Shown here: piece by piece, positions 40,837-58,390 of the stretch
Position numbering within the stretch: position 1 is the first letter of the stretch
Layout: every line of letters starts with the position of its first letter
Source of the DNA: Ensifer adhaerens
GTDB lineage: Bacteria > Pseudomonadota > Alphaproteobacteria > Rhizobiales > Rhizobiaceae
Length of the DNA stretch: 64,000 bases
Assembly: GCF_013283195.1 (NCBI RefSeq)
Contig: NZ_JABEKT010000002.1
Coordinates: 1,313,862 to 1,377,861, forward strand
Reading direction: 5' to 3'
Notes under the pieces: model-generated
Seen by the model: the letters and a program-made list of their open reading frames with translations, nothing else
Told to the model about the DNA's origin: nothing
Databases searched by the model: none
Made by a program: the position numbers and the translations under genes

Positions 40837-41046
40837 AGTCCTGGTCTCCCCTTCCAAGAGCACACACAACGCGGCACTCGCTCGCGCGAATTCCGCTTCG
40901 ATGACACCGCCCCTCGCAGTGCGTCTCGCGTTCCGCCTTCGGCCGCACTCTAGCACATACCGCGCGGTCCTCGGATCGACCTCGAACGGAACCAAAGGGC
41001 GCGAATGCTGCTATAGGCCCACGTCTCTTTTGCGCCCACTTGTCGT

Positions 41047-41718
41047 TCAAGCACTACCGCTGGCGAAGACCAGCAACCGATTGTTGGTAGGCATCTCGAT
41101 CGTCTCGCGGAGAGTAAGTCCAACGGCCTCACCAACTTGTTCAAGATCAGCGATATCACGCACACCCCAGGATGGGTTGCGCTCCTTTAGAGCCGCATCG
41201 AAAGCAGCGTTCGAGGGGGCGTTGTGTGCCCCCTTGCACATGAATGGGCCGTAGAGAAGAAGAAGCCCACCAGCGTGAAGCAAACGGCCAGCTCCTGCGA
41301 ACAATCCTAAGCTTGCCGCCCATGGCGCGATATGGATCATATTGATCGACACGATGGCGTCAAAATGCCCCGCTTGTTCGACGCCCCATTGTCCTGAGCA
41401 CACATCAATATCCCGCGGTGCCAGCACATTCTTCAGCCCTGCGTATCTGATCCAGCTAGACGTGCTGGTGCGGGCGTCGGCATCCGGATCGCTCGGCTGC
41501 CAGGTGAGGTTGGGCATTGCTTTCGCAAAACACACGGCGTGCTCGCCGGTCCCGCATCCAATCTCCAGCACGGCGCCACCTGCTGGAAAGACACGTTTCA
41601 GGACCGCTAGGATCGGCACCGAATTCCGCGCAGCGGAAGGTGAGAACATGCGCTTGTCGGCGCTTACGTCGCGCTGTTCCAGCGCAACAGGCGAACGGTC
41701 CTTCTGCTCTGGGGGCAT
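41047..41718 (-). CDS. DUF938 SAM-dependent methyltransferase-like protein
   Basis: A 223-residue class I methyltransferase fold protein of the DUF938 family. The SAM-binding loop is AVLEIGCGTGEHAVCFAKAM, preceded by the family motif FSPSAARNSVPILAVLKRVF and followed by IVSINMIHIAPWAASLGLFA and LLLYGPFMCKGAHNAPSNAA. Substrate unknown. It is co-oriented with the Mo enzyme gene (210 bases apart) and divergent from the CBS-led run. Confidence 0.88.
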   Translation of the reverse strand: MPPEQKDRSPVALEQRDVSADKRMFSPSAARNSVPILAVLKRVFPAGGAVLEIGCGTGEHAVCFAKAMPNLTWQPSDPDADARTSTSSWIRYAGLKNVLAPRDIDVCSGQWGVEQAGHFDAIVSINMIHIAPWAASLGLFAGAGRLLHAGGLLLLYGPFMCKGAHNAPSNAAFDAALKERNPSWGVRDIADLEQVGEAVGLTLRETIEMPTNNRLLVFASGSA

Positions 41719-41830
41719 TGGCCTTGAATCCCCTTTGGGCGATGTCCCCCATCTTATAGCTGAAATGATGGGACTGAAACCAAGGAGTTCGGGCTAAAGA
41801 ATGGTGTCGTCAGTACGCGCGTACACCTCG

Positions 41831-41847
41831 GAGAATGTGACATTCTC
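41831..41847. promoter_or_regulatory. Palindrome upstream of the CBS-led operon (a)
   Basis: GAGAATGT, one base, ACATTCTC: a perfect 17-base palindrome about 145 bases before the CBS-BON start. Candidate operator. Confidence 0.4.
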
Positions 41848-41853
41848 GTGAAA

Positions 41854-41868
41854 GATGCATTCTGCATC
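41854..41868. promoter_or_regulatory. Palindrome upstream of the CBS-led operon (b)
   Basis: GATGCA, three bases, TGCATC, seven bases after palindrome (a). The close pair suggests two bound regulator dimers or two different factors. Confidence 0.35.
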
Positions 41869-41990
41869 GCCTGCTCCGGTCAACAAGGAATAACCGGTCC
41901 TAAGCGAACAGGTTGTCGAACGACTGGGATGGGTTTACGTTACCCGTCCTGATGACGGTGCCAACAAGTCCTATCGGGGGTTGGATCGAC

Positions 41991-42656
41991 ATGCTCGCCC
42001 AGGATGTGATGACGACAGTTGTCGTCAAGCTTTCACCAGACAACAGTGTCAGGCAAGCAGCGCAGATCATGCTCGACAATCACGTTAGCGGCCTCCCGGT
42101 CGTTGACGATGACGGGCATTTGGTGGGCCTGATCACGGAAGGCGACCTGATCCGCCGGATTGAGCTTGGCGGCGGTGTGCCTGTTATAGATGCCTCCCTA
42201 ACGACCGAAGTCAGGGCTAACGCCTATCTGCGGCGGTCGTCGTGGAGGGTTGGCGACGCGATGACCGCTGATCCCGTAACGGTCAATGAAGACGCGTCCG
42301 TTTCGCGGGTGGCGGCGCTGATGCAGGAACGCGGCATCAAGCGCATTCCCGTCCTTCGAAACGACGTTCTTGTCGGCATCATCAGCCGCGCCGATCTGTT
42401 GCAGGCAATCCTGTCGGCAAGACATGACGAGACCGCATTGGGCGACGATGCGATCCGCCGCAGCATTCTGGTTCGACTTGGAGAGAACACGGGCCTTGAA
42501 GGGCTGGATGTCACAGTCGCGGTCAGCGATGGCGTCGTGCACCTGTGGGGCAACGTCGAAGCACCCGAATGCCGAAGGGCCGCACGCATACTCGCAGAAA
42601 ACGTTCGCGGCGTCAGAGGCGTGGTCGAGCACTTCCCGGAACCGTATCCGCACTAG
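41991..42656 (+). CDS. Two CBS domains plus BON domain protein
   Basis: A 221-residue protein. CBS domain 1 (about 1-60: MLAQDVMTTVVVKLSPDNSV, NHVSGLPVVDDDGHLVGLIT), CBS domain 2 (about 88-145: VGDAMTADPVTVNEDASVSR, GIKRIPVLRNDVLVGIISRA), and a C-terminal BON domain (about 155-221: TVAVSDGVVHLWGNVEAPEC). CBS pairs bind adenylates and sense energy state; BON domains bind lipid or envelope components. The ATG at 41991 starts exactly at the first CBS motif. It is the first gene of the long plus-strand run and precedes the alcohol dehydrogenase by 65 bases. Confidence 0.88.
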   Translation: MLAQDVMTTVVVKLSPDNSVRQAAQIMLDNHVSGLPVVDDDGHLVGLITEGDLIRRIELGGGVPVIDASLTTEVRANAYLRRSSWRVGDAMTADPVTVNEDASVSRVAALMQERGIKRIPVLRNDVLVGIISRADLLQAILSARHDETALGDDAIRRSILVRLGENTGLEGLDVTVAVSDGVVHLWGNVEAPECRRAARILAENVRGVRGVVEHFPEPYPH

Positions 42657-42721
42657 CACGGTACCTTCCCTTCCTATCCTCAATGCATCTTCTGGGTCTA
42701 CCAAGCTGGAGGAACATGGAA

Positions 42722-43750
42722 ATGGCAAAGACAATGAAGGCGGCTGTCGTACGGCAGTTTCGCGCTCCGCTCGTTATTGAGGAGATGACAGTTCCAACGC
42801 CCGCACCGGGGCAGATACTGGTCAAGTACGAAGCGACTGGCGTGTGCCATACGGATCTGCATGCGGCAAACGGCGACTGGCCGGTAAAGCCGTCGCCACC
42901 CTTCGTACCCGGACACGAAGGTGTCGGCTTCGTCGCGGCCGCAGGCACCGGCGTGAAGAGGGTGAAGGAGGGTGACAGGGTCGGCGTCCCCTGGCTGCAC
43001 TCCGCGTGTGGCTATTGTCCCTATTGCAGAACCGGCTGGGAGACCCTTTGTGGCTCGCAGACCAACACCGGATACTCCGTCAACGGCACGTTTGCAGAGT
43101 TTGGATTGGCCGACCCTGATTTTGTCGGCAGCCTTCCCAGGAGCCTGGAATTCGGCGCTGCCGCGCCCGTCCTCTGCGCGGGGGTGACCGTCTACAAGGG
43201 GCTGAAAGAGACGGAAGTTCGCCCGGGCGAATGGGTGGCCGTCTCAGGCATCGGAGGACTTGGTCACATGGCGGTGCAGTATGCCAAGGCCATGGGCATG
43301 AACGTTGTCGCCGCCGATATTTTTGAAGAGAAACTGGCCCTGGCCAAGCAGCTTGGCGCTGACATCACCGTCAACGGCAAGGCAAAAGACGCCATCGAGC
43401 AGGTAACGCGCGCCACAAATGGCGGCGTTCATGGGGTCCTTGTGACCGCCGTGTCTCCCATCGCCATGGAACAGGCCTTCGGCTTCCTGCGGTCGAAGGG
43501 GACGATGGCACTTGTCGGCCTGCCTCCAGGAATGATGTCGCTGCCTGTGTTCGAGACGGTCCTCAAGCGCATCACCGTGCGCGGATCGATCGTCGGCACC
43601 CGCCAGGACCTGGAGGAATCCCTGCTGTTTGCGGCGGAAGGAAAGGTGAAACCTCACTTTTCGTGGGAGAGCCTCGAGAACATCAACGACATCTTCCATC
43701 GGATGGAAGCAGGCAAGATCGACGGTCGCATCGTTCTGCGACTGCACTAA
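42722..43750 (+). CDS. adhP: Zinc-dependent alcohol dehydrogenase (AdhP type)
   Basis: A 342-residue medium-chain alcohol dehydrogenase acting on ethanol/acetaldehyde-like substrates. Catalytic zinc ligands lie in TGVCHTDLHAANGDWP and VPGHEGVGFV; the structural zinc site is CGYCPYCRTGWETLC; the Rossmann motif is VAVSGIGGLGHMAVQYAKAM. GGAGG at 42708-42712 best fits the ATG at 42722; another ATG at 42716 is too close. In this operon it could reduce acetaldehyde from the ethanolamine ammonia-lyase to ethanol, or oxidise ethanol; inference. Confidence 0.9.
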   Translation: MAKTMKAAVVRQFRAPLVIEEMTVPTPAPGQILVKYEATGVCHTDLHAANGDWPVKPSPPFVPGHEGVGFVAAAGTGVKRVKEGDRVGVPWLHSACGYCPYCRTGWETLCGSQTNTGYSVNGTFAEFGLADPDFVGSLPRSLEFGAAAPVLCAGVTVYKGLKETEVRPGEWVAVSGIGGLGHMAVQYAKAMGMNVVAADIFEEKLALAKQLGADITVNGKAKDAIEQVTRATNGGVHGVLVTAVSPIAMEQAFGFLRSKGTMALVGLPPGMMSLPVFETVLKRITVRGSIVGTRQDLEESLLFAAEGKVKPHFSWESLENINDIFHRMEAGKIDGRIVLRLH

Positions 43751-43804
43751 CGCGTCACAGTCAGCCGAAAGTCCAAGCAAAGTCTTGTCGACCGGGAGGG
43801 TCAG

Positions 43805-46261
43805 ATGGTCACGCCAGACACAGCATCGATGAACGAGGCAGCATCCGCAAAACCGGCAAAGCCACTAACGGCAGACGAACTTCGCCTGATGGATGCCTAT
43901 TGGCGGGCCTCGAACTATCTTTCGGTCGGCCAGATCTATCTGCTCGACAATCCGCTCCTGAGGAAGCCCCTGAAGCGAGAAGACATAAAACCACGCCTGC
44001 TCGGCCACTGGGGGACTTCGCCCGGCCTCAACATGCTCTACGTGCATCTCAACCGGATCATCAAGCGCGACGACCTCAACATGATCTACGTGATCGGTCC
44101 GGGACATGGCGGGCCATCGCTTGTGGCCCATGCCTATCTCGAGGGGACGTACAGCGAGTTCTATCCCAACGTCAGCCAGGATAGCGAAGGCCTGCAGCGG
44201 CTGTTCAAGCAGTTCAGCTTTCCCGGCGGCATTCCGAGCCATGTGGCGCCGGAAACGCCGGGCAGCCTCCATGAGGGCGGCGAGCTCGGCTACGCGCTCA
44301 GCCATGCCTATGGCGCAGCTTTCGACAATCCCGACCTCATCGTTGCCTGTGTCGTCGGTGACGGCGAGGCCGAGACCGGTCCACTGGCGACGGGATGGCA
44401 AAGCAACAAGTTCCTGAACCCCGCTCGCGACGGCTGCGTCCTGCCGATCCTGCATCTGAATGGCTACAAGATCGCCAACCCGTGCTTCCTCGCCCGCATC
44501 CCGCATGACGAGCTCCGCAAATTCTTCGAAGGCATGGGCTACAAGCCATATTTCGTCGAAGGCGATGACCCGGCAAGCGTTCACCAGCAGCTGGCAGGCG
44601 TGCTCGACACGGCCATGGCCGAGATCCGGCAGATCTGGGATGACGCCCGAAAAAGGGGGAATGTGAAACGACCGGCCTGGCCGATGATCGTCTTCCGCAC
44701 ACCGAAGGGGTGGACCTGCCCGGACGAAATCGACGGCAAGAAATGCGAGGGCTACTGGCGAGCGCATCAGGTACCGATGGGCGAGATGAGCAAGCCGGAG
44801 CACATTCGCATCCTGGAACAATGGATGAAAAGCTATCGCCCGGAGGAACTCTTCACCGACGAAGGGCGACTGAGACCGGAACTTGCCGCGCTTGCACCTA
44901 CGGGCCACCGCCGGATGAGCGATAACCCGCATGCCAACGGTGGCTTGCTGCTGCGCGATCTGAAGATGCCGGCCTTCCGCGACTATGGCGTGGATGTCCC
45001 GCAACCCGGCGCGACCACGGTGGAGGCCGCCCGCGTCATGGGCACGTTCCTAAGAGACGTGATGAAGGCCAACATGAACAGCCGCAACTTCCGCCTGTTC
45101 AGCCCCGACGAAAACAACTCCAACCGCTGGCAGGACGTGCTCGAGGTCACCAACCGCTGCTACATGGCGGAGATCTACCCCGAGGATGATCATCTATCCC
45201 CGGATGGCCGCATCATGGAAGTGCTCAGCGAGCACCAGTGCCAGGGCTGGCTCGAAGGCTACCTGCTCACCGGCCGCCACGGGTTCTTCTCCTGCTACGA
45301 GGCCTTCATCCACATCATCGATTCGATGTTCAACCAGCATGCCAAGTGGCTGAAGGTCTGCAACGAGATCCCGTGGCGCCGGCCGGTGGCGTCGCTGAAC
45401 TATTTCCTGAGCTCACATGTGTGGCGTCAGGATCACAACGGCTTCAGCCATCAGGACCCCGGCTTCATCGATCACGTCGTCAACAAGAAGGCAGAAGTCG
45501 TGCGCGTCTATCTGCCGCCGGATGCCAATACGCTGCTTACCGTCACCGATCATTGCCTGCGCAGCCGCAATTACATCAACGTCGTCGTCGCGGGCAAGCA
45601 ACCAGGGCCGCAATGGCTGACGATGGAACAGGCTGTGCGCCATTGCGCCATGGGCGTCAGCATCTGGGATTGGGCAAGCAACGACGAAGGCAGCGAGCCG
45701 GATGTCGTCATGGCCTGCTGCGGCGACGTCCCGACGCTCGAGACCTTGGCGGCGGTGCAATTACTGCGCGAGCACCTGCCGGAAGTGAAGGTGCGTGTCG
45801 TCAATGTCGTCAACCTGATGAAGCTACAGCCTGCCGAAGAGCACCCCCATGGCCTTTCAGACCGGGATTTCGATGGCATCTTCACCCGGAACAAGCCGAT
45901 CATCTTTGCCTTCCACGGTTACCCATGGCTGATCCATCGCCTCACCTATCGCAGGACCAACCACGGCAACCTGCATGTGCGCGGCTACAAGGAGGAAGGC
46001 ACGACAACGACGCCGTTCGACATGGTCGTCCTTAACGACCTCGATCGTTTCCACCTGGTCAGTGATGTCATCGACCGCCTGCCGCAACTTGGCGCCCGCG
46101 CCGCCTATTTCAAGCAGGCCATTCAGGCCAAGCTGTTCGAGCACCGCGACTACATCGAGAAACACGGCGACGACATGCCGTCGATCACCGGCTGGAAGTG
46201 GGGCGTCAAAGCTTCGGGACAAACAAAGGCATCGACGTCGACGGAAGGTGACAATGTCTAG
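43805..46261 (+). CDS. xfp: Xylulose-5-phosphate/fructose-6-phosphate phosphoketolase
   Basis: An 818-residue thiamine-diphosphate enzyme that splits xylulose-5-P or fructose-6-P with phosphate into acetyl phosphate plus glyceraldehyde-3-P or erythrose-4-P. Length and motifs match full-size phosphoketolases: [49 protein letters not shown], the ThDP motif [20 protein letters not shown], and [20 protein letters not shown]. The ATG at 43805 has GGGAGGGTCAG upstream. It lies 54 bases after adhP and 22 bases before the GH94 gene, so it is likely co-transcribed. It can feed acetate metabolism from sugar phosphates. Confidence 0.95.
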
Positions 46262-46283
46262 TTTTGGTTGAAAGGTCGGTTTG

Positions 46284-49200
46284 ATGGTTCATCCGGTTGG
46301 CAAGAGTGGTGTCAGCGCAAGCCGCGAGGCGGGTGCGCTGCCGGATGTCTCCCTCTTGTCGAACGGTCGATACAGCGTCCTTCTTACGGAGGCCGGCTCT
46401 GGATATGGATCCTGGCGCGGCCTCGACATCACCCGTTGGCGAGAAGACGGTACGCGCGACTGTTGGGGCCAGTTTTGCTACATTCGAGACCTTGAGAGCA
46501 ACGAGGTCTGGACAATCGGGCGACAACCGATCCATCATCCAGCGGCTGCCTACCAACATTCTTTTCACGTCGATCGCGCCGAATACCACTGTCATTACGG
46601 GGACATAGACATCCGGTGGGAGGTTTGCGTCGCGCCCGATTGCGATGCGGAGGTTCGCGTGCTCTTCCTGCACAACACCGGAAGCAAAACGAAAAGGATC
46701 GAGCTGACAAGCTACTCCGAAATATGCCTCAACAGCCGACGCGCCGACAGCGCACACCCGGCATTTGCCAAGCTTTTCATTGAAACCCGCTTCGACGCCG
46801 AAACAGGAGCACTGTTCGCGCGGCGTCGACCGCGCAGCGCGGCGGAGAAGCCAATCTGGGCGGTACATGTGTCGGCCTCCAGCGACGAAACCCATCATTC
46901 GGTGGAGCATGACACCGATCGGCACAGATTTCTCGGCCGGCACAGGACACCAACAGACCCGCGCGCCCTGGGGCCGGGAAGAAGCCTCTCAGGCACGACC
47001 GGCCCTGTCCTCGATCCCATTTTCAGCTTGCGCCGAGTGGTCGTTCTCGGCCCGGCCGAGACGCAACAGGTTGCGTTTGCAACTGGGGCTGCGGAGGATG
47101 AGGAAACGGCAGCAACGATCGCGAAGCGGTTTGCCGACGTTCGTTCCGCTCGCCGCGCATTGTCTGACGCCACGGCCAGTTGCGCCGATGGCGGCCTTCC
47201 ATCCCCCGAAGAGGCAACCCTCTTCAATCGGCTGGCGGGCACCTTGTTGTTTTCGCGCCCGGGCCTTCATGGCACGGCCGCGCAAGAGCATCCCGGTGAC
47301 AGCGGCTTCCAGTCAGCGGGCATCTCGGGACACCTCCCTATTGTGCTCCTGCGCGTGGACAAACAGGGCGAAGCACCCCTCATAGACACGGCGATCGACG
47401 CCCACGCGTTCATCACCGGTCGCGGATTTCCCTTCGATCTTGCCATCCTCGACGAGACAGAGGCAATCACACGATTGCCGCTGAGCACGAAGGCATCTGT
47501 CCACATGGAAGCGACGCTGGGCAAAGCCGGGGGTATCCACGTGGTATCCACCGAGAACGTGGGGGATGCAATCGCGGCCAAGGCTCGTGCGGTACTATGT
47601 TGTGGTCGCGGGTCGCTTGCTGAGCAACTCGCTCCAGCGCCCGCTATCGCTTTGCCGATCTGGAAACCGACGAAAGCGCCCCTTGCCGGCGTGGGTGCAA
47701 AACGTCGAGCGGGGCGAGACGGCCTGCACTTTTGGAATGGTCGCGGAGGTTTCTCGAAAGACGGGCGCGAATATGTCATCGCGACTGAAGGTGATCGCGC
47801 GACACCGATGCCGTGGTGCAACGTCATTGCCAACCCCGTGTTCGGCTGCATGACGAGTGACAGTTGTCTTGGCTACACCTGGGCAGGCAACAGTCAGTTG
47901 AACAGACTGACGCCCTGGTCAAACGATCCGGTTTCAGATCAGCCCGGCGAAATTGTCTACTTGCGCGACGAGTCGACAGCGACGTTGTGGACGCCGACGA
48001 CTTTGCCTCTCGGGCAGGCCTCAGCGACGACAGTGCGGCATGGGCAGGGTTACACGCGATACGAGAGCGATCTGGGGCTCCTTCATCATGAACTGACCGT
48101 CCATGTGCCCGTTGCAGCCACGGTCAAGATCGTCCGCCTCTCCTTGCGCAACGATGGAAGATATGCACGCAATCTCACCGCCACCTATTTCGTTGAATGG
48201 GTGCTCGGCATCTTGCGGGAAGACGGGCACGCTCTGATCGAATGTGAATTCGACATCGAAAGCAGTGCCATCGTCGCTGCGCGCCGCGGGACGGGAGAAT
48301 TTTCCGGAGACCTGGCATTTGTGGCATCGAGTGCGCCGGTGCGATCCTTCACATGCGACCGGCTCGGGTTTCTTGGCAGAGAGGGGTCAATTTCTCAGCC
48401 GGCGGGATTGGTAGGCCTGGAGCTCGACGGGCGCCTCGGATCCCCGCTCGACCCGTGCGCCGCCCTCATGGTCGACGTTTCAATCTCACCGGCATCAACC
48501 GTCGAACTGGTCTTCGTGCTGGGACAGGCAAAGGATCACGAAGAGATCCGCAGGCTCGTCCGTGAACACGCCGAACCGGGGAGTGCAAAGCGTTCGCTGG
48601 CAGAGGCTTCCCGCCAATGGGACCAGTTGCTGAACTCCGTCACGGTTCGTACGCCCGACAAGGCCTTTGACCTCATGATGAACCGCTGGCTGCTCTATCA
48701 GGTGCTGTCTTGCCGCATCTGGGCTCGAACAGGGTTCTACCAGTCCGGCGGCGCCTACGGATTTCGCGACCAACTCCAGGATGTCGCCGCCCTCGTCCAT
48801 AGCGCGCCTGAAGAAACGCGCGCTCACATCCTTCGCGCGGCCGCCCGCCAGTTCACCGAAGGAGACGTTCAGCATTGGTGGCATCCACCATCGGGCGCGG
48901 GCGTGCGCACCCGCATGACCGACGATCTGTATTTTCTGCCATACGTCGTCCATCGTTACGTGACGATCTCTGGCGATTACAAGCTCCTGAACGAGCTGGT
49001 TCCTTTCATCGTATCCCCAACCCTTAATAACCAAGAGGAGGAACGCTTCGAGGTCCCCGGGGTCAGCCAAGAGCGCGGCACCGTCTATGATCACTGCTGC
49101 CGGGCGCTCGATCAAGGTTTGAGACTGGGCCGCCACGGGCTTCCACTCATGGGAACGGGCGACTGGAACGACGGCATGAACCGGGTCGGCGCCGAGGGCA

Positions 49201-50123
49201 AAGGTGAGAGTGTGTGGAACGGGTGGTTCTTCCTGACCGTGCTCGGATCATTTGCCGCGATCGCGAAAGTCATGGGAGACAAAGATCGGGTCGCCTGGTG
49301 TACTGGCGCAGCCGAGGCATTGCGCGTGTCGTTGGAGCGCCATGCCTGGGACGGATCCTGGTACCGCCGTGCCTACTTCGACGACGGCACTCCCCTTGGT
49401 TCATCCCTCAACGACGAATGCCAGATTGACGCCATACCTCAGGCGTGGGCGGTCATCTCGGGCGCCGCCGATACTGAACGCGCCTCTATGGCAATGCGAG
49501 CGGTTTGGCAAAGGCTCGTTCGCACCGAGAGCAAGCTAATTCAGCTTTTCGATCCGCCGTTTGACAAGGGCGCGCTGCAGCCTGGATACATAAAAGGTTA
49601 TGTGCCCGGCATTCGGGAGAATGGCGGCCAATATACCCACGCAGCCACTTGGGTTGCCCTTGCAACCGCGTTGCTTGGGGACGGCGATCGAGCATTTCAG
49701 CTCTGGAGCATGCTCAATCCCATCAACCATTCCCTTTCACCTGAAGACGCCGAGCGCTACATGGTCGAACCCTATGTTGTTAGCGCCGACGTGTACGGTG
49801 CACCGCCTCATACCGGCCGCGGCGGCTGGACCTGGTACACCGGATCGGCCGCCTGGATGTATCGTGTAGGGCTGGAAGCTATTCTCGGCATTCGCCGTCA
49901 GGGGAATCGGCTTTTCGTGAAACCGTGCATACCGACGGAATGGTCGACATACGAAGTCGACTTCCGACACGGGAGGTCGATTTACCGGATCAAGGTACGC
50001 AATGATGCCAAATCAGGAGAGGGCTCCTATGCGCTGACCCTCGACGGCAAGAGTGTCGGTGATCTGAGTGTTCCACTCGTGGACGACGGACGAGATCACA
50101 ACATACATCTCGTGGTTGGCTGA
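46284..50123 (+). CDS. GH94-family phosphorylase-like protein (NdvB C-terminal half-like)
   Basis: A 1279-residue protein related to the GH94 part of cyclic beta-1,2-glucan synthase (NdvB/Cgs) and to 1,2-beta-oligoglucan phosphorylases. Two tandem glycosyltransferase-36-type regions open with LLSNGRYSVLLTEAGSGYGS and later VIANPVFGCMTSDSCLGYTW. The catalytic GH94 domain carries SGGAYGFRDQLQDVAALVHS, the proton-donor Asp in PLMGTGDWNDGMNRVG near residue 960, and GRGGWTWYTGSAAWMYR. It lacks the GT84 membrane synthase domain and any signal peptide, so it is presumably cytoplasmic. It probably releases glucose-1-phosphate from beta-1,2-glucooligosaccharides. ATG 46284 has AAAGG upstream. Confidence 0.88.
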   Translation: MVHPVGKSGVSASREAGALPDVSLLSNGRYSVLLTEAGSGYGSWRGLDITRWREDGTRDCWGQFCYIRDLESNEVWTIGRQPIHHPAAAYQHSFHVDRAEYHCHYGDIDIRWEVCVAPDCDAEVRVLFLHNTGSKTKRIELTSYSEICLNSRRADSAHPAFAKLFIETRFDAETGALFARRRPRSAAEKPIWAVHVSASSDETHHSVEHDTDRHRFLGRHRTPTDPRALGPGRSLSGTTGPVLDPIFSLRRVVVLGPAETQQVAFATGAAEDEETAATIAKRFADVRSARRALSDATASCADGGLPSPEEATLFNRLAGTLLFSRPGLHGTAAQEHPGDSGFQSAGISGHLPIVLLRVDKQGEAPLIDTAIDAHAFITGRGFPFDLAILDETEAITRLPLSTKASVHMEATLGKAGGIHVVSTENVGDAIAAKARAVLCCGRGSLAEQLAPAPAIALPIWKPTKAPLAGVGAKRRAGRDGLHFWNGRGGFSKDGREYVIATEGDRATPMPWCNVIANPVFGCMTSDSCLGYTWAGNSQLNRLTPWSNDPVSDQPGEIVYLRDESTATLWTPTTLPLGQASATTVRHGQGYTRYESDLGLLHHELTVHVPVAATVKIVRLSLRNDGRYARNLTATYFVEWVLGILREDGHALIECEFDIESSAIVAARRGTGEFSGDLAFVASSAPVRSFTCDRLGFLGREGSISQPAGLVGLELDGRLGSPLDPCAALMVDVSISPASTVELVFVLGQAKDHEEIRRLVREHAEPGSAKRSLAEASRQWDQLLNSVTVRTPDKAFDLMMNRWLLYQVLSCRIWARTGFYQSGGAYGFRDQLQDVAALVHSAPEETRAHILRAAARQFTEGDVQHWWHPPSGAGVRTRMTDDLYFLPYVVHRYVTISGDYKLLNELVPFIVSPTLNNQEEERFEVPGVSQERGTVYDHCCRALDQGLRLGRHGLPLMGTGDWNDGMNRVGAEGKGESVWNGWFFLTVLGSFAAIAKVMGDKDRVAWCTGAAEALRVSLERHAWDGSWYRRAYFDDGTPLGSSLNDECQIDAIPQAWAVISGAADTERASMAMRAVWQRLVRTESKLIQLFDPPFDKGALQPGYIKGYVPGIRENGGQYTHAATWVALATALLGDGDRAFQLWSMLNPINHSLSPEDAERYMVEPYVVSADVYGAPPHTGRGGWTWYTGSAAWMYRVGLEAILGIRRQGNRLFVKPCIPTEWSTYEVDFRHGRSIYRIKVRNDAKSGEGSYALTLDGKSVGDLSVPLVDDGRDHNIHLVVG

Positions 50124-50125
50124 CC

Positions 50126-51445
50126 ATGTCGCAAGCGCTGTCGACAGATGAAGAACTGAGCCGGATACCGACCGAGCAGGATCTCGCCCGGCTGCAATTC
50201 ACGACACTGCTGTATTATCTGCACTGCACCAACCCCGACAACGGGCTCGTTCGCGACAAGACGGAAGAAGACGCACCCGCAAGCATTGCCGCTATCGGCA
50301 TGGCGCTTGCCACAATCCCCGTGCTTGTCGAGCGGGGCATTGTCATCCGCAAATTCGCGGCAAAAATTGCCCGCAGGCGACTGCAATTTCTCCTGGAATG
50401 TCCGCAGGGGCCGGAGCCTGACGCCACCGGCTACAAGGGTTTCTTCTATCATTTCCTCGATATCGATACTGGCCGGCGCGTTTGGGAATGCGAACTGTCG
50501 ACGATCGACTCAGCGTTTCTTTTCGCAGGGGCACTGACGGTGGCCGCCTACTTCGACGCCGATGCGCCGGAAGAGGCGGAAATTCGTCGGCTGGGAAACG
50601 AACTTTATGAACGCGCGGACTGGAATTGGGCCCGCGATCACGGACTCACGCTGACCCATGGCTGGCGACCGGAAAACGGCTTTATTCCCTATCGCTGGCG
50701 CGGGTATGACGAAGGCCTGTTGCTCTACATCCTAGGCCTTGGATCGCCCACTCATCCGCTGCCACCGGAATCCTACTCCGCCTATACCGAGAGCTACGAC
50801 TGGCGGAACCTCTATGGGCGGGAACTACTCTATTCGGGACCGCTGTTCACCCACCAGCTTTCGCATATGTGGATCGACTTCCGCGGCATCCGTGACGAAT
50901 TCATGCGCGAACGTGACAGCGACTATTTCCAAAACAGCCGGCACGCGACCTACGTCCAACAGCAATATGCCATCCACAACCCGCTGAACTTCGCCGGATA
51001 CGGCGAATTCTGCTGGGGCTTCACGGCTAGCGACGGACCAGGATGGGTCAAGCGCACCGTCGACGGCGTCGAAAGGGAATTCTTCGACTACCTTGCCCGC
51101 GGTGCACCCTTCGGACCGGACGACGGAACGGTGTCTCCATGGGCCGTCGTCGCATCGTTACCGTTTGCTCCGGAGATCGTCATTCCAACGGTTTGGAACT
51201 TTGCCCGCATGAATCTCGGCATGACGCGCCTCTACGGATTCAAACCGTCGTTCAACCGGAGCTATGCCGTGGAAGGTGCCGAGGCGGGATGGTGGGTCAG
51301 CCCCCACCACTTCGGCATCGACCAGGGGCCCGTGGTGCTGATGATCGAAAACTACAGGACCGGGCTGTTGTGGAATATCATGCGCCGATCAGAGCCCCTG
51401 GTGAGGGGGCTGCGCCGCGCCGGCTTTTCCGGCGGTTGGCTGTAA
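50126..51445 (+). CDS. PF10091 'glycoamylase' protein, beta-1,2-glucan-active (GH144/GH189-like)
   Basis: A 439-residue (alpha/alpha)6-type enzyme of Pfam PF10091. Founding activities are endo-beta-1,2-glucanases (GH144) and the transglycosylase domain of cyclic glucan synthase (GH189). Motifs: LARLQFTTLLYYLHCTNPDN, STIDSAFLFAGALTVAAYFD, PYRWRGYDEGLLLYILGLGS, PLFTHQLSHMWIDFRGIRD and CWGFTASDGPGW. Two bases separate it from the GH94 gene, so both act together. Without a signal peptide it would cut imported or cytoplasmic beta-1,2-glucans into oligomers for the phosphorylase. GH144 versus GH189 cannot be settled by eye. Confidence 0.85.
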   Translation: MSQALSTDEELSRIPTEQDLARLQFTTLLYYLHCTNPDNGLVRDKTEEDAPASIAAIGMALATIPVLVERGIVIRKFAAKIARRRLQFLLECPQGPEPDATGYKGFFYHFLDIDTGRRVWECELSTIDSAFLFAGALTVAAYFDADAPEEAEIRRLGNELYERADWNWARDHGLTLTHGWRPENGFIPYRWRGYDEGLLLYILGLGSPTHPLPPESYSAYTESYDWRNLYGRELLYSGPLFTHQLSHMWIDFRGIRDEFMRERDSDYFQNSRHATYVQQQYAIHNPLNFAGYGEFCWGFTASDGPGWVKRTVDGVEREFFDYLARGAPFGPDDGTVSPWAVVASLPFAPEIVIPTVWNFARMNLGMTRLYGFKPSFNRSYAVEGAEAGWWVSPHHFGIDQGPVVLMIENYRTGLLWNIMRRSEPLVRGLRRAGFSGGWL

Positions 51446-51503
51446 GCGCTCCGCGTCGTTCAATCCAGGGCCGGGAGCGGCCTTCTGATGAAAGGAAATC
51501 GCC

Positions 51504-53855
51504 ATGAGGAAGGGCTTGTTCTCCAATCAAAGTGCCGGATTGTATAGACGGGATCTCCTGATTATTGCCGGAACTGCCGCTGCTGCGCTGTCCAGTTCCA
51601 GGCATGCAGCGCAAGCGGCGGCGAGGGAACATGCCGTCAGGATCGTGGAGGTCAAGCCGGACGAGGACGTCTTTGCCTATATCAGCAGGATGAAGGGCAG
51701 TTTCGATCAGAAGACCTATCAGCAGGTCATCGGCGCTGCGAACGATTTCAAGGAAGGCGACCAGACAATTGGAGTTGGCGCCGAAGACGACGCGACACGG
51801 CGCTATGCGCGCAGCCTTCTGACAAGGACGACAATCAGCAATCTCCATCAGCACCCATTGTTCGAGGACGATCTGCAGCGTTTGATTTGGGAGACGACCG
51901 ACAAGGCCCAGTTCGAGCAGATCAAAGAGTGGACTTTGGGTGACCTGAAGGAATTTCTCCTCAAAGAGCCGGAGGAAAGCATCAAAGCCATCATGAACGG
52001 CCTCACCAGCGACGCGATCGGATGCGTGCCGAAACTGATGAGTAACGAAGAACTGATCACCGTCAGTCAGAAGATTTTCAACGTCATGCCGGGCACCAAG
52101 CTGGGGGCCAAGGGCTACATGGGTGCGCGTATCCAGCCGAATTCGCCAACCGACCACCCAGACGACATTATGTGGCAGGTCTTCGACGCATTTTCCTATG
52201 CTACGGGCGACATCGTCATCGGCACCAACCCGGTGGACAGCACTGTTGACAGCGTCGTCACGGTGGAGCGTGCGCTCAAGGACATCGTGGACACCTTCAA
52301 ACTGGGCGATGTCATCCCGTGGTGCGTGCTTGCCCACATCGACGTCCAGAGCGAGGTGAGCGAAAGGTTCCCGGGAACGGTTTCCACGATGTTCCAGAGC
52401 CTCGCCGGCACGGATGACTGCAACAAGATCTTCGATATTACCAATGAGAAGATCCTCAAATACGCGCAGGCGAAGGCCGGAGAGCGTTACGGTCTTTATT
52501 TTGAAACAGGGCAAGGTTCGGAATTCACCAACAGTGTCGCCAACGGTGTCGACATGGTGGTGCTTGAGTCTCGAAAGTATGGTTTCAGCCGAGCGGTCGG
52601 CATCGAACTCGCAAAGGTCCAACCCGAAGGTGCCTGGCTCCATGTCAATGATGTTGCCGGCTTTATTGGACCGGAGGTCTTCAAGAGCCGCGAACAACTC
52701 GTGCGGTGCTGTCTGGAGGACATGGTCATGGGCAAGCTCCATGGGCTGACCATCGGCCTCGATGTTTGCACCACGCTGCACATGACGGTGAGCCTGGACG
52801 ATCTCGATTGGTGCCAGGACCAGATCATGCCCGCCAACCCCGCCTATCTGATTGCTTTGCCGACCAAGAACGACCCCATGCTGAGCTATCTCACGACTGC
52901 ATTCCAGGATCATGTGCGCGTGAGGGACAAATTTGGCTTCAAGGTCAACGACGCGATGTGGGATTTCTACAAGCGCATCGGGGTCGTTGGCGAGGACGGG
53001 CGTTTCACCAGGTATTACGGAGATCCTCTGTGGGTCTATTACCAATATCGCCTCGCCAAGGGTGATGGCAGGCCCCAGGACGCGATCTACGATGAAGGTC
53101 GTGAGAAGGTCCGGGAAGTCGAAGCGAGGGGCGTCGACCTGGCCATGGGGCATGGGGAGAAGATCTGGGACCTCAATCCGGCCCTCGCCGCAAAAGTCAG
53201 GGGCCTTTATGACGACGCCAAAGTCTCTCTTTGGGCCGAACTTACACCGGGGTTTATCGCGGCCGTCCCCAACGTCGTTCCCGTTCGCACCCTGTCCAAG
53301 GATCGGAACGACTACATCGCGCACCCGACCACCGGTGAGACGCTGAGCCCGGAGTCGATTGGGGAGATTGAACGGATAAGGGCCTCCTGGGGAAACGATA
53401 TGCCCAAGGGCCAGATCGTCATTTCCGACGGCCTTAACGCCAAGGCCATCATGGACGACGGGCATCTTGCACCTTACCTGGAGGAAGTGCGCAAGCTGCT
53501 TTCGGACGCCGGTGTCACCATGAGCGAAGACAACATCCTCGTCACCAGTGGAAGAGTGCGGGCCGGATATCGCATCGGCGAAACGCTCTTTGAGAAGTCG
53601 GACCCAGACAGTCTGAGGGGGATTCTCCATATTATCGGTGAGCGACCGGGCACAACGCACCACGCATACTCGGTCTACATCACGGTCGCCAAGGGCAAGC
53701 GATGGTCGCAGAAGGGTATCGACCACGATGCCACAAGACTTGTGAGCAATGTGGCTGACACCGCGCTGCACCCGCGAGACGCTGCCAGGGAAACCCTGAC
53801 GATCATCAGGGAGATCGTTGGTAAACAGGTTAACAATAGCAGGAGATATGGGTAG
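51504..53855 (+). CDS. eutBC: Fused EutB-EutC ethanolamine ammonia-lyase with Tat-like leader
   Basis: A 783-residue fusion of both subunits of adenosylcobalamin-dependent ethanolamine ammonia-lyase (ethanolamine to acetaldehyde plus ammonia). The EutB part (about 40-515) includes YFETGQGSEFTNSVANGVDM, HVNDVAGFIGPEVFKSREQL and KLHGLTIGLDVCTTLHMTVS. The EutC part (about 520-775) includes GQIVISDGLNAKAI, ILVTSGRVRAGYRIGE and LHIIGERPGTTHHAYSVYIT. The first 40 residues look like a twin-arginine signal (LYRRDLLIIAGTAAAALSSS, then RHAAQA), which would send the folded, cofactor-loaded enzyme to the periplasm; known homologues are cytoplasmic. AAAGGA precedes the ATG. No eut microcompartment or reactivase gene is nearby. 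Confidence 0.88.
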   Translation: MRKGLFSNQSAGLYRRDLLIIAGTAAAALSSSRHAAQAAAREHAVRIVEVKPDEDVFAYISRMKGSFDQKTYQQVIGAANDFKEGDQTIGVGAEDDATRRYARSLLTRTTISNLHQHPLFEDDLQRLIWETTDKAQFEQIKEWTLGDLKEFLLKEPEESIKAIMNGLTSDAIGCVPKLMSNEELITVSQKIFNVMPGTKLGAKGYMGARIQPNSPTDHPDDIMWQVFDAFSYATGDIVIGTNPVDSTVDSVVTVERALKDIVDTFKLGDVIPWCVLAHIDVQSEVSERFPGTVSTMFQSLAGTDDCNKIFDITNEKILKYAQAKAGERYGLYFETGQGSEFTNSVANGVDMVVLESRKYGFSRAVGIELAKVQPEGAWLHVNDVAGFIGPEVFKSREQLVRCCLEDMVMGKLHGLTIGLDVCTTLHMTVSLDDLDWCQDQIMPANPAYLIALPTKNDPMLSYLTTAFQDHVRVRDKFGFKVNDAMWDFYKRIGVVGEDGRFTRYYGDPLWVYYQYRLAKGDGRPQDAIYDEGREKVREVEARGVDLAMGHGEKIWDLNPALAAKVRGLYDDAKVSLWAELTPGFIAAVPNVVPVRTLSKDRNDYIAHPTTGETLSPESIGEIERIRASWGNDMPKGQIVISDGLNAKAIMDDGHLAPYLEEVRKLLSDAGVTMSEDNILVTSGRVRAGYRIGETLFEKSDPDSLRGILHIIGERPGTTHHAYSVYITVAKGKRWSQKGIDHDATRLVSNVADTALHPRDAARETLTIIREIVGKQVNNSRRYG

Positions 53856-53984
53856 GCAGCCGCCATCGCACGGCGCGCCGTGCGATCCGCAAAAGGTTGA
53901 CGGGCAGTGGTCCTGATTGGAGGTTTGGTGCCCGCTTTCTAGGGCTCCATCTTCGCAGCCGGCGTTTTCGCGAAGGAAAACGGC

Positions 53985-55664
53985 ATGGAGACCCAGCAAG
54001 CGTCACTCAAAGTGACGGCGGCTCGCTTCTTGCGATCCGTGCGAATTCTATTGCGCTCCGAGGTAGGTGGGAGGGCGAAGCTGACGTTCGCCGGGCTCGT
54101 GGCATTGTTGTTCGGCTTGAACGGTCTCAATGTCGTCAACAACTATGTCGGCCGAAACTTCATGACCGCCATCGCGGAGCGCCAGACCGATGAGTTCGTC
54201 CGACAGGCGGTCTATTACATCTGCGTTTTCGCTATCCTTACCATTGTCGGGGTCATCGCCCGCTTCACCGAAGAGCGACTGGCCTTGCTTTGGCGTGAAT
54301 TCCTCACGCGCCGCGCCGTGAACCTCTATCTTGAAGAGGGGACGTATTATCGCCTCGACATATCCGGGCAACTCGCTCATCCGGACCAGCGCATTGCCGA
54401 GGATATCCGCGCCTTCACCGTCACGACGCTTTCCTACGTCATCATGCTGTTCAGCAGCGCTTTGACGGTGGTGAGCTTCTCCGGCGTGCTCTGGTCCATA
54501 AGTCCCTTGCTGTTTGGCGTGGCCGTCCTCTACGCGGCATCCGGTTCCTACATGACGATCGTCCTGGGTCGACCGCTCATTGATCTGAACTACGACCGGC
54601 TCGACAAGGAGGCCAACTTCCGCTCCAGCCTCATTCACGTTCGTGAAAACGCCGAATCCGTTCTTGTGACGCGCGGCGAGGATCGGCAGAGAACCCGCTT
54701 GCTGCACCGCATTGACGATCTGGTCGCCAACATTCGCAGTATCATCGCCGTCAACCGGAACCTGGGCTTCTTCACCAACGGCTACAACTGGATGATCCAG
54801 ATTATTCCGGACCTCATCATAGCCCCGGCCTTCATGCGAGGCGAAATCGAGTTTGGCGTCATCACCCAGCCGGGCGCAGCCTTTGCGATGCTCGTCGGCG
54901 CATTTTCATTGATCATTCGCCAGTTCAACTCGATCTCGAACTTTGCCGCAGTCGTTTCTCGTCTGAGTTCATTGCTGGAAGCGATTGAACGAACCCATAC
55001 AAGCGATGAATCGCGCATTGAACTCGAAGAACAGAAGGGACAATTCGCATTTGAGCGGGTGACACTGCGGTTGCCGGATGGATCGCCTCTTCTGAATGAC
55101 CTTTCGATAAGCATACCTGCTGGTAGCCGGGTGCTGGTTACGGGAGCCAGCCCGGCCGTCGGGGTAGCCTTGTTCAGGGCGGCTGCGGGGATCCCGGTGG
55201 CGGGAGCCGGTCGGATCATTCGACCGGGCTCGGAAGACCTCATGTTTCTCCCGCAGCGACCCTACCTGACGCCTGGCTCGCTGCGACAAATTCTGCTTCC
55301 TCCGGGCGAAGTCAGCGCGACCTCCGATGCCCGGCTCCGGCAGGTCCTGCGAGAACTTGGCTTGGAGGAACTCGCCGGCGATGTCGAAGGGCTGGGCAAA
55401 GAACAAAATAGAGAAATCTCGCTGGGCGACCAACAGCTCCTGGCCATCGCCAAGGTCCTCCTGTCGAAACCACAGTTCGTCTTTATGGATCGCGTCGAGT
55501 CAATGCTGCGGCAAGACCAGTTCGACAGGGTGCTGCATCTCTTTTCCGCAAAGTCGATCACGTGCGTCAACAACGGTGAGCGATCCAATAAACGCGACCT
55601 CTACGACGCCGTGCTGGAATGCCACGAGGACGGTCAGTGGGCTTGGAAAGCCATCCGCTTGTGA
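53985..55664 (+). CDS. BacA/ABCD-type ABC transporter with degenerate ATPase domain
   Basis: A 559-residue fused membrane/nucleotide-binding protein of the ABC_membrane_2/SbmA-BacA-like class, whose relatives carry peptides or cobalamin (mycobacterial Rv1819c, human ABCD4). The membrane half has several helices (LTFAGLVALLFGLNGLNVVN) and the EAA-like motif NYDRLDKEANFRSSLIHVRE. The ATPase half (about 355-545) is eroded: Walker A reads GASPAVGVALF without Lys-Ser/Thr, the signature is ISLGDQQLLAIAKVLL, and Walker B is FVFMDRVES without the catalytic Asp-Glu pair. It may be a non-hydrolysing or proton-driven carrier. GAAGGA precedes the ATG. It lies 129 bases after eutBC. Confidence 0.85.
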   Translation: METQQASLKVTAARFLRSVRILLRSEVGGRAKLTFAGLVALLFGLNGLNVVNNYVGRNFMTAIAERQTDEFVRQAVYYICVFAILTIVGVIARFTEERLALLWREFLTRRAVNLYLEEGTYYRLDISGQLAHPDQRIAEDIRAFTVTTLSYVIMLFSSALTVVSFSGVLWSISPLLFGVAVLYAASGSYMTIVLGRPLIDLNYDRLDKEANFRSSLIHVRENAESVLVTRGEDRQRTRLLHRIDDLVANIRSIIAVNRNLGFFTNGYNWMIQIIPDLIIAPAFMRGEIEFGVITQPGAAFAMLVGAFSLIIRQFNSISNFAAVVSRLSSLLEAIERTHTSDESRIELEEQKGQFAFERVTLRLPDGSPLLNDLSISIPAGSRVLVTGASPAVGVALFRAAAGIPVAGAGRIIRPGSEDLMFLPQRPYLTPGSLRQILLPPGEVSATSDARLRQVLRELGLEELAGDVEGLGKEQNREISLGDQQLLAIAKVLLSKPQFVFMDRVESMLRQDQFDRVLHLFSAKSITCVNNGERSNKRDLYDAVLECHEDGQWAWKAIRL

Positions 55665-55792
55665 CCACCGGCAGTCCCAGCAAGGGGCAGCTACTGCGCA
55701 TACGCCAACCGCGCCGACTATCGACGGAGCGGCCGACAGCAGTTACCGAGACAGATGGATCGGCCGGCTCTTACCTGACTTGACCCGGTTTC

Positions 55793-58390
55793 TTAGCGCC
55801 CCCGACCGCCTCCGCCACGCCCGCCGCCGCCACCCCGGAAGGCTGCCCCACCACCACGCCCACCACCGCCACCACTGAAGGCTGGTCCGCCTCCGCGACC
55901 GCCGCCCCCTTGGAAACCTCCGCGGTTGCCGCCCTGAAAACCGCCGCCGCGATAGCTGCCGCGGTCAAAGTTCTGGAAGTTGCCGCCAGGCTGCTGATAG
56001 AGACGGCCATAGTTGCGGCTCAGCTCGTTCTGGTTGCCAAATTGTCGTCCGGCCCGATCAAATGAAAGATGATCCGGTGCCCGTTGCCGAACCTGCTGAT
56101 TGCGGCGTGGCGCGGGCCTCGTCTCAGCCCGGTTCTGGATGCGTTGCGCGGCTTGCGGCCGGTTGGATGCTGCGCGCTGAGCGGCGTTGCGAACGCTTTC
56201 TGCGTCAGGCCGCTGAACGGGCTGCCAACCGTCCGGTGAGTGCTTCTGCCACTGCCCGTCCTGGCGGCGATAGACGTTGCCGTCGCGGCCGGCATAGACG
56301 TCACCACCCTTGCTACCGACGATGAAGCCTTTTTCGCCTTCGGTGTTGCGCCAGCGCAGACCGCCAGCACTCCCGGTCGTTCCTCCGCTTATGCGCGCGA
56401 ATTCGCCGCCGTGCTTGACGGACACACTGCCCCACGAACCGTAGACATTCTGTCCGCCACGCGCGACCATGGCGTTGCCGGTGCTTGGATTGTAGGCGGA
56501 GATAAAGCCTCGTTCGCCACCAGGTCCTGCCACCGCGCCGGCACGGAACCGGGTTCCAGTCACTGGATTATAAGCCGCACCAAACGCCAAACCTCTTTCG
56601 GGGCCGTAGGCGTAACCGTAGCGTCCAAAGGTTCCGTAAGCCGGATTGTAGGAAGCGCCGAAGCCGTAGCTTATCGGAGGCGGATAATAGGGCCAATCGT
56701 CGTCGTAGTAGTCCCAATAGGGCGGATAATACCATCCCGACCCCCAAACGACCGTGTCCCAGGCGAGATAAGTATAGAGATAGCCGAGAGTGTACCCGTA
56801 CCAGATGGCGTCGGGCTCGGTGTCATAGACCCGGACATAGGTCGCGTTATAGAACGGAGACGATGATGGGATCGTATAGATCTCGTCCGCAACGGAGCGC
56901 GCAACGGCAAACGGACCGGTCGGTGTGTCACCGACGAACCAGATGCCATCCTTGAGGACGAAGTATTTATCCGCAACCTTGATGACCTGCTCATTCGCAT
57001 TGACGGCATAAAACAAGGACGTGCCTTCAATCGCTTCGAATTTCGGCTCGCCATTATAGCGTACATCGACCTTCAATGACCCATCGGTGGAAACGCGCGC
57101 GAGCTTCGGAATGCTTGCCCTCAGGCGCGCCATCGCGCTCTCGGACGTGCCAGGTATCGAGGCGCGCACTGCCGAATAGGACGCGTCGTCCGGTATGTTC
57201 CGGAAATCGTCCGGCAGGTCTGGAGTAGCAAAGGTCCAGGGTCCTTTGAGCGAGGCGGATGAAAACCATCTGCCGGAGATAAGGGTGTACCAGTTCTTGC
57301 TGCTACGATGGAAGAAGACCGAACTGGTGGTATTGGAGACCCAGTCAAGTCCGGTACCCGCCACCGGTTCGAGCACAGGCTTTCCTTCAAATAGCAAAAG
57401 CTCCGCTGGTTTCTGGGAATAGAAAACCCTCGGGATCCCGTCCTCGTTGAAGCGTGTTGGCGGGAGCGCGGTCTTTACCTCTTTCCAGTTTTCGCTCTCG
57501 GGAAGTTTGGAAATCAGATCCGGAACCGTTTCCGTCGCAACCCAATCTGCCTCCAATGTCTTTGAGGTGAGCCAGTTCTTGTCGCTTCGCAAAAAGTAGT
57601 CGCCCGACTGATCCACCTTGAAGAGATCCCAGTTCGTATTGACCACGAACGATAGGCCGTTAACACCCTTGACGGGAGCCAGGACGACCGCACCGTCAGT
57701 CTGCAACAGGATCGCCGGTGTCTCACTGATAAAGATTGGCGGCGGGTCGGACTTGATATCCGGCACGTCTGCGAGCCGCTCGAAATCGCCAAGGCTCGCT
57801 GCCAGGCGCTGCTGCGACACCACGATTGGCTCGGTCGGAATAAGCTTTCCGACATCGAGTGCGAGATCTGCAAGTTGCTTGCGGTCCAGTGCGGAGAATT
57901 CGAGCCGTGTCGCTTTCACATCTGTCAGCGTGACGTTTTCATTCGCATCGTCAGCCACGGTCTTGGCTGAAAGCCCGATGACCCCGTAGACCGGCGTCGC
58001 GTCGGCGGAGGATTTCAGTTCGGTCGCGAGCAGCGCCTCGAGCTCCCGGAAACCTTTCCACGAGGTTATCTGCGGCTGAAACAGCGTGATCGTCGCACCC
58101 GTGTCGGTGGTAAAGACCCGCGGCCACGCCGGGGCCGTGGAGTCGGACTGATTGAGATACTTCCCCGCAACAAAACCGTTGGTGCCAGAATAGCCGACGG
58201 CGCACCAGGAGGCTTCCGCATCGCACTCCTTGATATCGACCTCATCGCCCTGAGGAAGAACGCGCATCGATTGAAATCCGGTGCCCGGACCAACCCTGAA
58301 ATTCACGTTTGCCGTGAGGATCGCGGGATCCGCAAACGCAGAGGAAGAGAAGAACGAAGCGATTGTTAGATACGAGAGTATCTTACGCAT
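55793..58390 (-). CDS. Large secreted SH3b protein with Gly/Arg-rich tail
   Basis: An 865-residue exported protein. Signal peptide MRKILSYLTIASFFSSSAFA; a bacterial SH3 domain follows (about 22-80: NVNFRVGPGTGFQSMRVLPQ, CAVGYSGTNGFVAGKYL). The middle (100-560) has repeated beta-rich units around phrases such as NWYTLISGRWFSSASLKGPW and KYFVLKDGIWFVGDTPTGPF. Residues about 570-610 are Tyr/Trp/Pro-rich, and the last 90 residues are Gly/Arg/Phe repeats (GGGRGGG). The ATG at 58390 has GGAG 7 bases upstream; an in-frame GTG at 58396 is less likely. Similar proteins are annotated as carbohydrate-binding, unproven. Surface or cell-wall role inferred. Confidence 0.8.
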   Translation of the reverse strand: MRKILSYLTIASFFSSSAFADPAILTANVNFRVGPGTGFQSMRVLPQGDEVDIKECDAEASWCAVGYSGTNGFVAGKYLNQSDSTAPAWPRVFTTDTGATITLFQPQITSWKGFRELEALLATELKSSADATPVYGVIGLSAKTVADDANENVTLTDVKATRLEFSALDRKQLADLALDVGKLIPTEPIVVSQQRLAASLGDFERLADVPDIKSDPPPIFISETPAILLQTDGAVVLAPVKGVNGLSFVVNTNWDLFKVDQSGDYFLRSDKNWLTSKTLEADWVATETVPDLISKLPESENWKEVKTALPPTRFNEDGIPRVFYSQKPAELLLFEGKPVLEPVAGTGLDWVSNTTSSVFFHRSSKNWYTLISGRWFSSASLKGPWTFATPDLPDDFRNIPDDASYSAVRASIPGTSESAMARLRASIPKLARVSTDGSLKVDVRYNGEPKFEAIEGTSLFYAVNANEQVIKVADKYFVLKDGIWFVGDTPTGPFAVARSVADEIYTIPSSSPFYNATYVRVYDTEPDAIWYGYTLGYLYTYLAWDTVVWGSGWYYPPYWDYYDDDWPYYPPPISYGFGASYNPAYGTFGRYGYAYGPERGLAFGAAYNPVTGTRFRAGAVAGPGGERGFISAYNPSTGNAMVARGGQNVYGSWGSVSVKHGGEFARISGGTTGSAGGLRWRNTEGEKGFIVGSKGGDVYAGRDGNVYRRQDGQWQKHSPDGWQPVQRPDAESVRNAAQRAASNRPQAAQRIQNRAETRPAPRRNQQVRQRAPDHLSFDRAGRQFGNQNELSRNYGRLYQQPGGNFQNFDRGSYRGGGFQGGNRGGFQGGGGRGGGPAFSGGGGGRGGGAAFRGGGGGRGGGGRGR

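Follow-up and report, generated by a model that had tools for sequence, protein, structure and literature searches.

The window analysed here, that is, the whole stretch of 64,000 nucleotides of Ensifer adhaerens DNA, encodes a protein that we read as an extracytoplasmic ethanolamine ammonia-lyase (EAL) made as one EutB-EutC chain, with adenosylcobalamin (AdoCbl)-dependent catalysis on ethanolamine presumably taking place outside the inner membrane (probability about 0.6). Judged from sequence, EutBC proteins of this exported type very likely cross the inner membrane. It is further plausible, at close to even odds, that a whole clade of AdoCbl radical enzymes acts outside this membrane and has kept that place while the route differs (Tat or Sec). 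B12 would then be exported with the folded enzyme in Tat members and bound in the periplasm in Sec members, some of which are encoded next to a B12-type importer. Cleavage of ethanolamine there would require no permease, reactivase or microcompartment, and this would apply to Pelobacter carbinolicus as well. The EutBC fusion itself is already in print in the portion of a genome paper available to us (PMC3543383). Its export appears to be new, as open-licence PubMed Central searches returned no report of exported EutBC fusions.

The fused protein and its leader

Both Pfam domains lie in one frame of 783 residues that starts with ATG (Table 1), in agreement with the preliminary description of a single EutB-EutC chain. 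The NCBIfam EutB model is passed by the window protein (637.6 against a cut-off of 554), while the NCBIfam EutC equivalog is not (77.7 against 230), and the EutC half is therefore divergent; the part of EutC needed to complete the cobalamin site is present. A genome search returned eutBC as the sole EutB match in the 7.07-Mb source genome. Eight positions of E. coli EutB that we take to be active-site residues (R160, Q162, N193, S247, F258, E287, V326 and D362) are identical in all 93 exported-type proteins compared (52/52 and 41/41), and R160, Q162, N193, E287 and D362, the residues by which an EAL was recognized, are thus kept in the window EutB domain. Beside the active site, exported proteins differ from ordinary EutB at several positions (S295 to T, V327 to A, A344-G345 to CC, N367 to L and A369 to M), and for this reason the substrate may differ. 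The fold of the structure model agrees with EAL EutB and EutC (PDB 3abo, 5ysr), at about 30% identity to known EAL in EutB and 20% in EutC. The E. coli and Salmonella enzymes thus share both domains, the fold and the active-site residues with the window protein, but they consist of two leaderless subunits and are cytoplasmic.

Two further observations concern the pocket. Six proteins (L153, L156, L157, L159, L165 and L167) carry His instead of Phe beside the catalytic Glu (E334); each stems from a genome with two matches, and together they perhaps represent a sub-type with another substrate. A change at Glu257 was considered as a mark of lost activity and rejected, as ordinary EutB proteins vary there as well.

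Table 1. Features of the eutBC row, with positions in the window
Feature	Position	Strand	Basis or remark
CBS-domain protein, first gene of the row	41913..42656	+	79% identical to the L006 protein, which has Pfam CBS and BON
AdhP-type alcohol dehydrogenase	ORF 42545..43750	+	likely start ~170 bases further in
Phosphoketolase	43805..46261	+	Pfam and NCBIfam
GH94-type protein	46281..50123	+	Pfam
Glucoamylase-like protein (PF10091)	50126..51445	+	58 bases 5' of eutBC
Shine-Dalgarno-like AAAGGAAA	51491..51498	+	sequence, 5' of the eutBC ATG
eutBC, EutB-EutC single chain with leader, 783 aa	51504..53855	+	ORF and Pfam
Tat-type leader, residues 1-38	51504..51617	+	motif and hydropathy; cut after A-Q-A proposed
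Twin arginine R15 R16	51546..51551	+	kept in 40/41 A1 rows, window included
EutB domain, residues 70-502	51711..53009	+	Pfam, 477.9 bits, above cut-off
EutC domain, residues 549-775	53148..53828	+	Pfam, 103.4 bits, above cut-off

The N-terminus of the window protein, MRKGLFSNQSAGLYRRDLLIIAGTAAAALSSSRHAAQAAAREH, has twin arginines at residues 15-16, a mild hydrophobic stretch, Arg and His ahead of the end, and AQA/AAA. By motif and hydropathy, which were used to assign the signal type (Tat or Sec) of all leaders, it has the features of a Tat substrate (RR, mild hydrophobic region and AxA-like end), and the source genome encodes TatC (PF00902, 234.8 bits). Residues 1-42 have pLDDT values below 50 in the structure model. 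Comparison of the window gene with seven rhizobial relatives (7 pairs) gave dN/dS values of 0.06-0.09 for the mature part and 0.20-0.34 for the leader; these ratios are rough, because dS is about 1 or above in these pairs. With this margin, the sequences indicate that eutBC is under purifying selection, its leader included.

Distribution of leaders and phylogeny

A scan of named genomes, with patterns built from the window protein and hence favouring close relatives, yielded 40 loci, and the resulting alignment A1 comprises 41 rows including the window, down to 52% identity. Twin arginine in a Tat-like setting is found in 40 of these rows; the exception, L030, is truncated by a contig edge, so that it starts within the protein. 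With two later members (L135 and L138) the Tat branch amounts to 42/42 readable rows with twin arginine, window included, from Rhizobiales, Thermodesulfobacteriota and one Verrucomicrobia MAG, so that the Tat-type leader proposed in the preliminary description appears both real and conserved.

A Sec-type signal peptide is present instead in 49 Thermodesulfobacteriota proteins. Homologues starting past residue 40, with the leader poorly kept, were looked for, and a leader was found in all 91 readable exported-type members (42 Tat-type and 49 Sec-type). These counts leave out L030 and L175, which are cut by the edge of a contig or locus, the partial L126, L182, whose gene is that of L167, and L179, which has an in-frame TRREFC motif and no standard start codon seen ahead of it; the broken copy L180 was entered in the leader count only. 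EutB was identified in 26 of 297 genomes sampled from the phylum to which the Geobacteraceae MAG G105 belongs, 14 with the exported type and 12 with ordinary EutB only. All 14 exported-type proteins have a leader, five of Tat type and nine of Sec type (for instance MKKIIGILGLFFLMIFSLPSMGGA), and two of the 14 are cut C-terminally by contig ends. Hydropathy separates this first set, the nine Sec-type leaders scoring 2.54-3.19 against 1.44-2.39 for all Tat rows. Three further samples added 40 readable leaders, none with a Tat motif behind the start, and their hydropathy of 1.89-3.33 overlaps the Tat range, so the distinction between Tat and Sec rests on the twin arginine. The proteins of L140, L169 and L177 begin with MRR, and in L169 and L177 no Tat motif follows the start. 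The leader of L022 contains LAGC, which we take to be lipobox-like.

Taxonomic distributions are uneven. EutB matches occur in 60 of 277 genomes of the class of G105; 29 of the 277 have an exported-type match of at least 1,100 bits, and seven have a more distant fusion at ~500-530 bits, leaderless in the six of these that were read. In the phylum of the Verrucomicrobia MAG, EutB was detected in 12 of 288 sampled genomes and the exported form in the starting MAG only. Within the window genus, a match was obtained in 11 of 16 genomes, full-length and unbroken in nine; broken exported-type copies were seen in two genomes of the genus (G014:C5:125366-127707 and G004:C2:978756-979338). Of the remaining 85 relatives, 16 gave a match, with the EutB part 30-37% identical.

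Ordinary EutB served as the control. In 39 loci, one of them partial, the longest open frame of up to 80 codons ahead of the core was taken with any start, and a leader was found in 0/38; one protein (L100) has an RR string without a hydrophobic stretch. Since Sec-type leaders replace Tat-type ones within the exported group and ordinary EutB is leaderless, the sequences indicate that export itself is conserved and that RR alone is an insufficient description.

Fusion and export do not always coincide. Methylocystis sp. MJC1 (WP_165050702.1) has EutB and EutC in one frame without a leader, and a leaderless fusion in genome G188 (L141) is, on a long branch, the nearest leaderless row to the exported clade. 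Six Desulfuromonadia fusions (L183-L188) are leaderless as well, each with an ATG 16 codons ahead of its KEGD/REGD core. All share the one-frame fusion of the window protein but lack its leader. Because of the Methylocystis fusion and the leaderless group that adjoins the exported clade, the one-chain state is not tied to export everywhere. As separate observations, the Methylocystis gene (plasmid locus L078, 5974-8169) is flanked by CAP-domain and TPR genes and its product has Ala at the catalytic Asp362 position, while L183-L188 and L141, at 34-38% identity, keep seven of the eight checked residues, F258 being Leu in the six and Ile in L141.

A quick tree of 93 rows, which predates the last samples and has long branches flagged, places the exported proteins in a single clade (support 100) on a branch of 2.28, L141 being the closest row outside it. 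Ordinary EutB makes up a separate group (support 95), and the leaderless fusion of Methylocystis falls on that side of the tree. The rhizobial members are nested within those of Thermodesulfobacteriota and other deltaproteobacterial MAGs, and this nesting suggests lateral transfer of exported eutBC into rhizobia.

Gene neighbourhoods and regulatory signals

In the window, eutBC closes a row of genes for CBS, AdhP, phosphoketolase, GH94 and glucoamylase-like proteins and is followed by an ABC protein. The window AdhP is 88% identical to the L009 protein, which passes the NCBIfam AdhP model (371.1 against 344). The same row, with a histidine phosphatase in addition, is present on a S. meliloti pSymA plasmid, where the annotation of the fused gene names EutB alone. 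Among rhizobial loci, adhP is in reach in 15/27; in 10/27 it shares the strand of eutBC and lies no more than 230 bp upstream. In L021 an acetate kinase gene is found 49 bp upstream of eutBC, behind a phosphate acetyltransferase gene. At the nine Sec-type loci of the first set, a gene for aldehyde:ferredoxin oxidoreductase (AOR) occurs within 240 bp in 5/9 and within 3 kb in 7/9, and BtuD-, BtuF- and BtuC-like genes follow eutBC in 3/9 (L130, L133 and L137); in L132 a BtuD-like gene alone follows, near a contig end. For the L130 proteins, BtuC and corrinoid-ATPase models score highest, yet below their cut-offs, so this type of importer may carry other cargo. The rhizobial eutBC flanks gave no BtuC or BtuF match. 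Taken together, the neighbours fit a B12 enzyme that makes acetaldehyde, namely AdhP in rhizobia, and AOR with a BtuCDF-like importer in Thermodesulfobacteriota.

Genes for a shell, a reactivase or a permease, which belong to the E. coli eut operon layout, are absent among the eutBC neighbours in the window. Elsewhere in the source genome, on other contigs, there are two strong PF06277 (EutA) matches and one fragment. The two EutA-type proteins (L075 and L076, contig C14) are of ~500 aa and lie beside cupin-like genes, one of them also near a flavin monooxygenase-like gene (cupin and monooxygenase judged by eye); a role as EAL reactivase was rejected, given this setting away from ethanolamine genes.

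Several other genes recur near eutBC. A hydrophobic protein of ~265 aa is encoded directly after Sec-type eutBC in L130 (9622-10419), with relatives in L132, L136, L137, L181 and L182; the L130 protein has no Pfam or NCBIfam match and probably corresponds to the multi-transmembrane protein described for P. carbinolicus. A gene for a TorF/Gcw_chp-type putative porin lies 139-172 bp before Sec-type eutBC in L130 (6297-7094), L136, L139 and L140. The L130 porin passes its Pfam model, the L136 counterpart has no Pfam match, and matches also occur in L181 and L182. DUF3300 and DUF2950 genes are near eutBC in L023, L026 and L036. In the window, a BacA/YddA-like ABC protein is encoded 3' of eutBC (53985-55664, + strand). 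Its ATPase part looks degenerate, with GASPAVGVAL at what we take to be the Walker A lysine site and FVFMDRVES at the presumed Walker B. It was rejected as an eutBC partner, since it adjoins eutBC only in the window and L002.

Regulatory signals were sought as well. No cobalamin riboswitch was identified in window positions 40000-58000 (E up to 1) or, at gathering score, in the 11 Thermodesulfobacteriota loci L130-L140, in which a c-di-AMP riboswitch in L135 was the sole riboswitch found. Window positions 41000-54100 contain no FixK/FNR-type box with one mismatch allowed, and consensus searches at eutBC gave no sigma-70-type promoter or terminator. On a S. meliloti pSymA plasmid (L073), two exact FixK/FNR-type boxes (1089-1102 and 1297-1310) lie 5' of the CBS-adhP-xfp-eutBC row, which as a hint of regulation is suggestive only.

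Proposed mechanism, alternative readings and implications

In the proposed mechanism, the Tat route would carry the one-chain EutBC over the inner membrane, with cleavage probably after AQA, and AdoCbl radical chemistry in the periplasm would convert ethanolamine into acetaldehyde and ammonia. Acetaldehyde would then diffuse inward and reach cytoplasmic AdhP in the source rhizobium, or AOR in the Thermodesulfobacteriota relatives, and the cell would need neither an ethanolamine permease nor a microcompartment. The preliminary description had the enzyme exported folded with its cofactor. Export stands as the best reading, with a conserved leader; that the protein travels folded with cofactor was not established, in view of the Sec-type sister group. 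Folded export with cofactor would fit the Tat members and could not hold where Sec is truly used. As Sec transports unfolded chains, its substrates among these enzymes would acquire the cofactor outside.

The closest known system is P. carbinolicus (Syntrophotalea). In the available portion of its 2012 genome paper, two EutBC genes are described as unusual fusions. They belong to a row of 43 genes that also includes AOR, a corrinoid-type ABC transporter and cobalamin synthesis; eutA is absent, growth on ethanolamine is reported, and it is suggested that distinct copies may handle ethanolamine and choline (PMC3543383). One-chain EutBC, nearby corrinoid-type ABC and multi-transmembrane genes, AOR in the cluster and the lack of eutA are thus common features of eutBC1/eutBC2 and the genes studied here. 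Export or a leader of EutBC is not mentioned in that portion, where 'signal peptide' refers to cytochromes and pili (PMC3543383). Genome G820 fits this organism, an identity that we infer. It has two eutBC ~29 kb apart on one strand, with BtuDFC-like genes after one copy, and these are its only EutB matches, both of exported type with leaders MRLRSKFLYGITFGLALTFVASLAGA and MLQKGKFVAGITGALVMTFLASMAGA, which are Sec-type, unlike the Tat-type leader of the window protein. With both EutB proteins of G820 carrying Sec-type leaders, the exported type seems to be the sole form of EutB in an organism for which life on ethanolamine has been reported, and on this ground our probability for an extracytoplasmic lyase was raised from 0.55 to 0.6.

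Among other cobalamin enzymes, AdoCbl diol and glycerol dehydratases are cytoplasmic or enclosed in microcompartments and have different subunits and substrates, and the reductive dehalogenases PceA and VcrA are cobalamin and iron-sulfur reductases, in chemistry unlike AdoCbl radical enzymes. These dehalogenases resemble the window protein as corrinoid enzymes with a Tat signal, according to the part of the source available (PMC4771760). A periplasmic lyase is not mentioned in the accessible part of a review of ethanolamine use (PMC5821096).

Certain points count against the extracytoplasmic reading. Known systems have their ATP-dependent reactivase and their source of cofactor in the cytoplasm, AdhP, phosphoketolase and GH94 of the window row look cytoplasmic, and the row may be a general carbon island. 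The same cytoplasmic types of neighbours would suit an enzyme that faces the cytoplasm and keeps its leader uncut, as a tail or membrane anchor; its reactivation and the supply of its cofactor would then be ordinary. This is improbable, as the twin arginine, superfluous for an anchor, is retained across large distances, Sec-type peptides that end in an AxA-like motif occur in other members, and L022 has the lipoprotein-like LAGC. A GTG at codon 48 might be the true start, the leader then being chance-open upstream DNA, but such an annotation artefact is most improbable given the leader dN/dS of 0.20-0.34 in 7/7 pairs, RR in 40/40 readable A1 rows and a Shine-Dalgarno-like stretch 5' of the ATG in the window and many relatives.

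Other alternatives accept export. A changed pocket might give an exported AdoCbl-dependent lyase another substrate, and in two-copy genomes one copy may take a second one. The active-site residues are kept, but several of their neighbours are fixed in a form unlike ordinary EutB (T342, N343, D383, A385, L425 and M427), the exported clade is led by a branch of 2.28, and the six proteins with His for Phe next to E334 come from two-copy genomes. Every residue taken as ethanolamine-binding is identical, however, and AdhP and AOR suit acetaldehyde, although both accept further aldehydes. Even with the separate ethanolamine and choline copies suggested for P. carbinolicus in the available text (PMC3543383), a different substrate is unlikely in our judgement. 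The Btu-like genes after eutBC in L130, L133, L137 and one G820 copy, together with the best, if sub-threshold, BtuC and corrinoid-ATPase scores of the L130 proteins, would also agree with a corrinoid-binding or scavenging protein, in which the EAL fold passes periplasmic cobamides to the importer and catalysis is secondary or lost. Active-site residues are conserved throughout, rhizobial flanks have no BtuC or BtuF match, and FecCD-type importers have other cargo too, such as iron chelates and oxyanions, which makes this role very unlikely.

Descriptions of ethanolamine breakdown place it in the cytoplasm or in microcompartments, with a reactivase and with containment of acetaldehyde. If the reading as an extracytoplasmic lyase is true, the view of ethanolamine use by some soil and sediment bacteria would have to be revised, and it would have to be asked how coenzyme B12 reaches the enzyme and stays active beyond the inner membrane. 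For an S. meliloti strain derived from Rm1021 and lacking MetH and NrdJ, MCM was taken as the sole cobamide-dependent enzyme in the part of a 2019 paper available (PMC6759758). In a comparison restricted to plasmid records, 25 match eutBC at 60% or more, with other S. meliloti plasmids among them and Rm1021 pSymA not. Exported EutBC may add a B12 enzyme to the rhizobial repertoire, and its Tat and Sec branches would represent a natural experiment on cofactor loading before versus after export.
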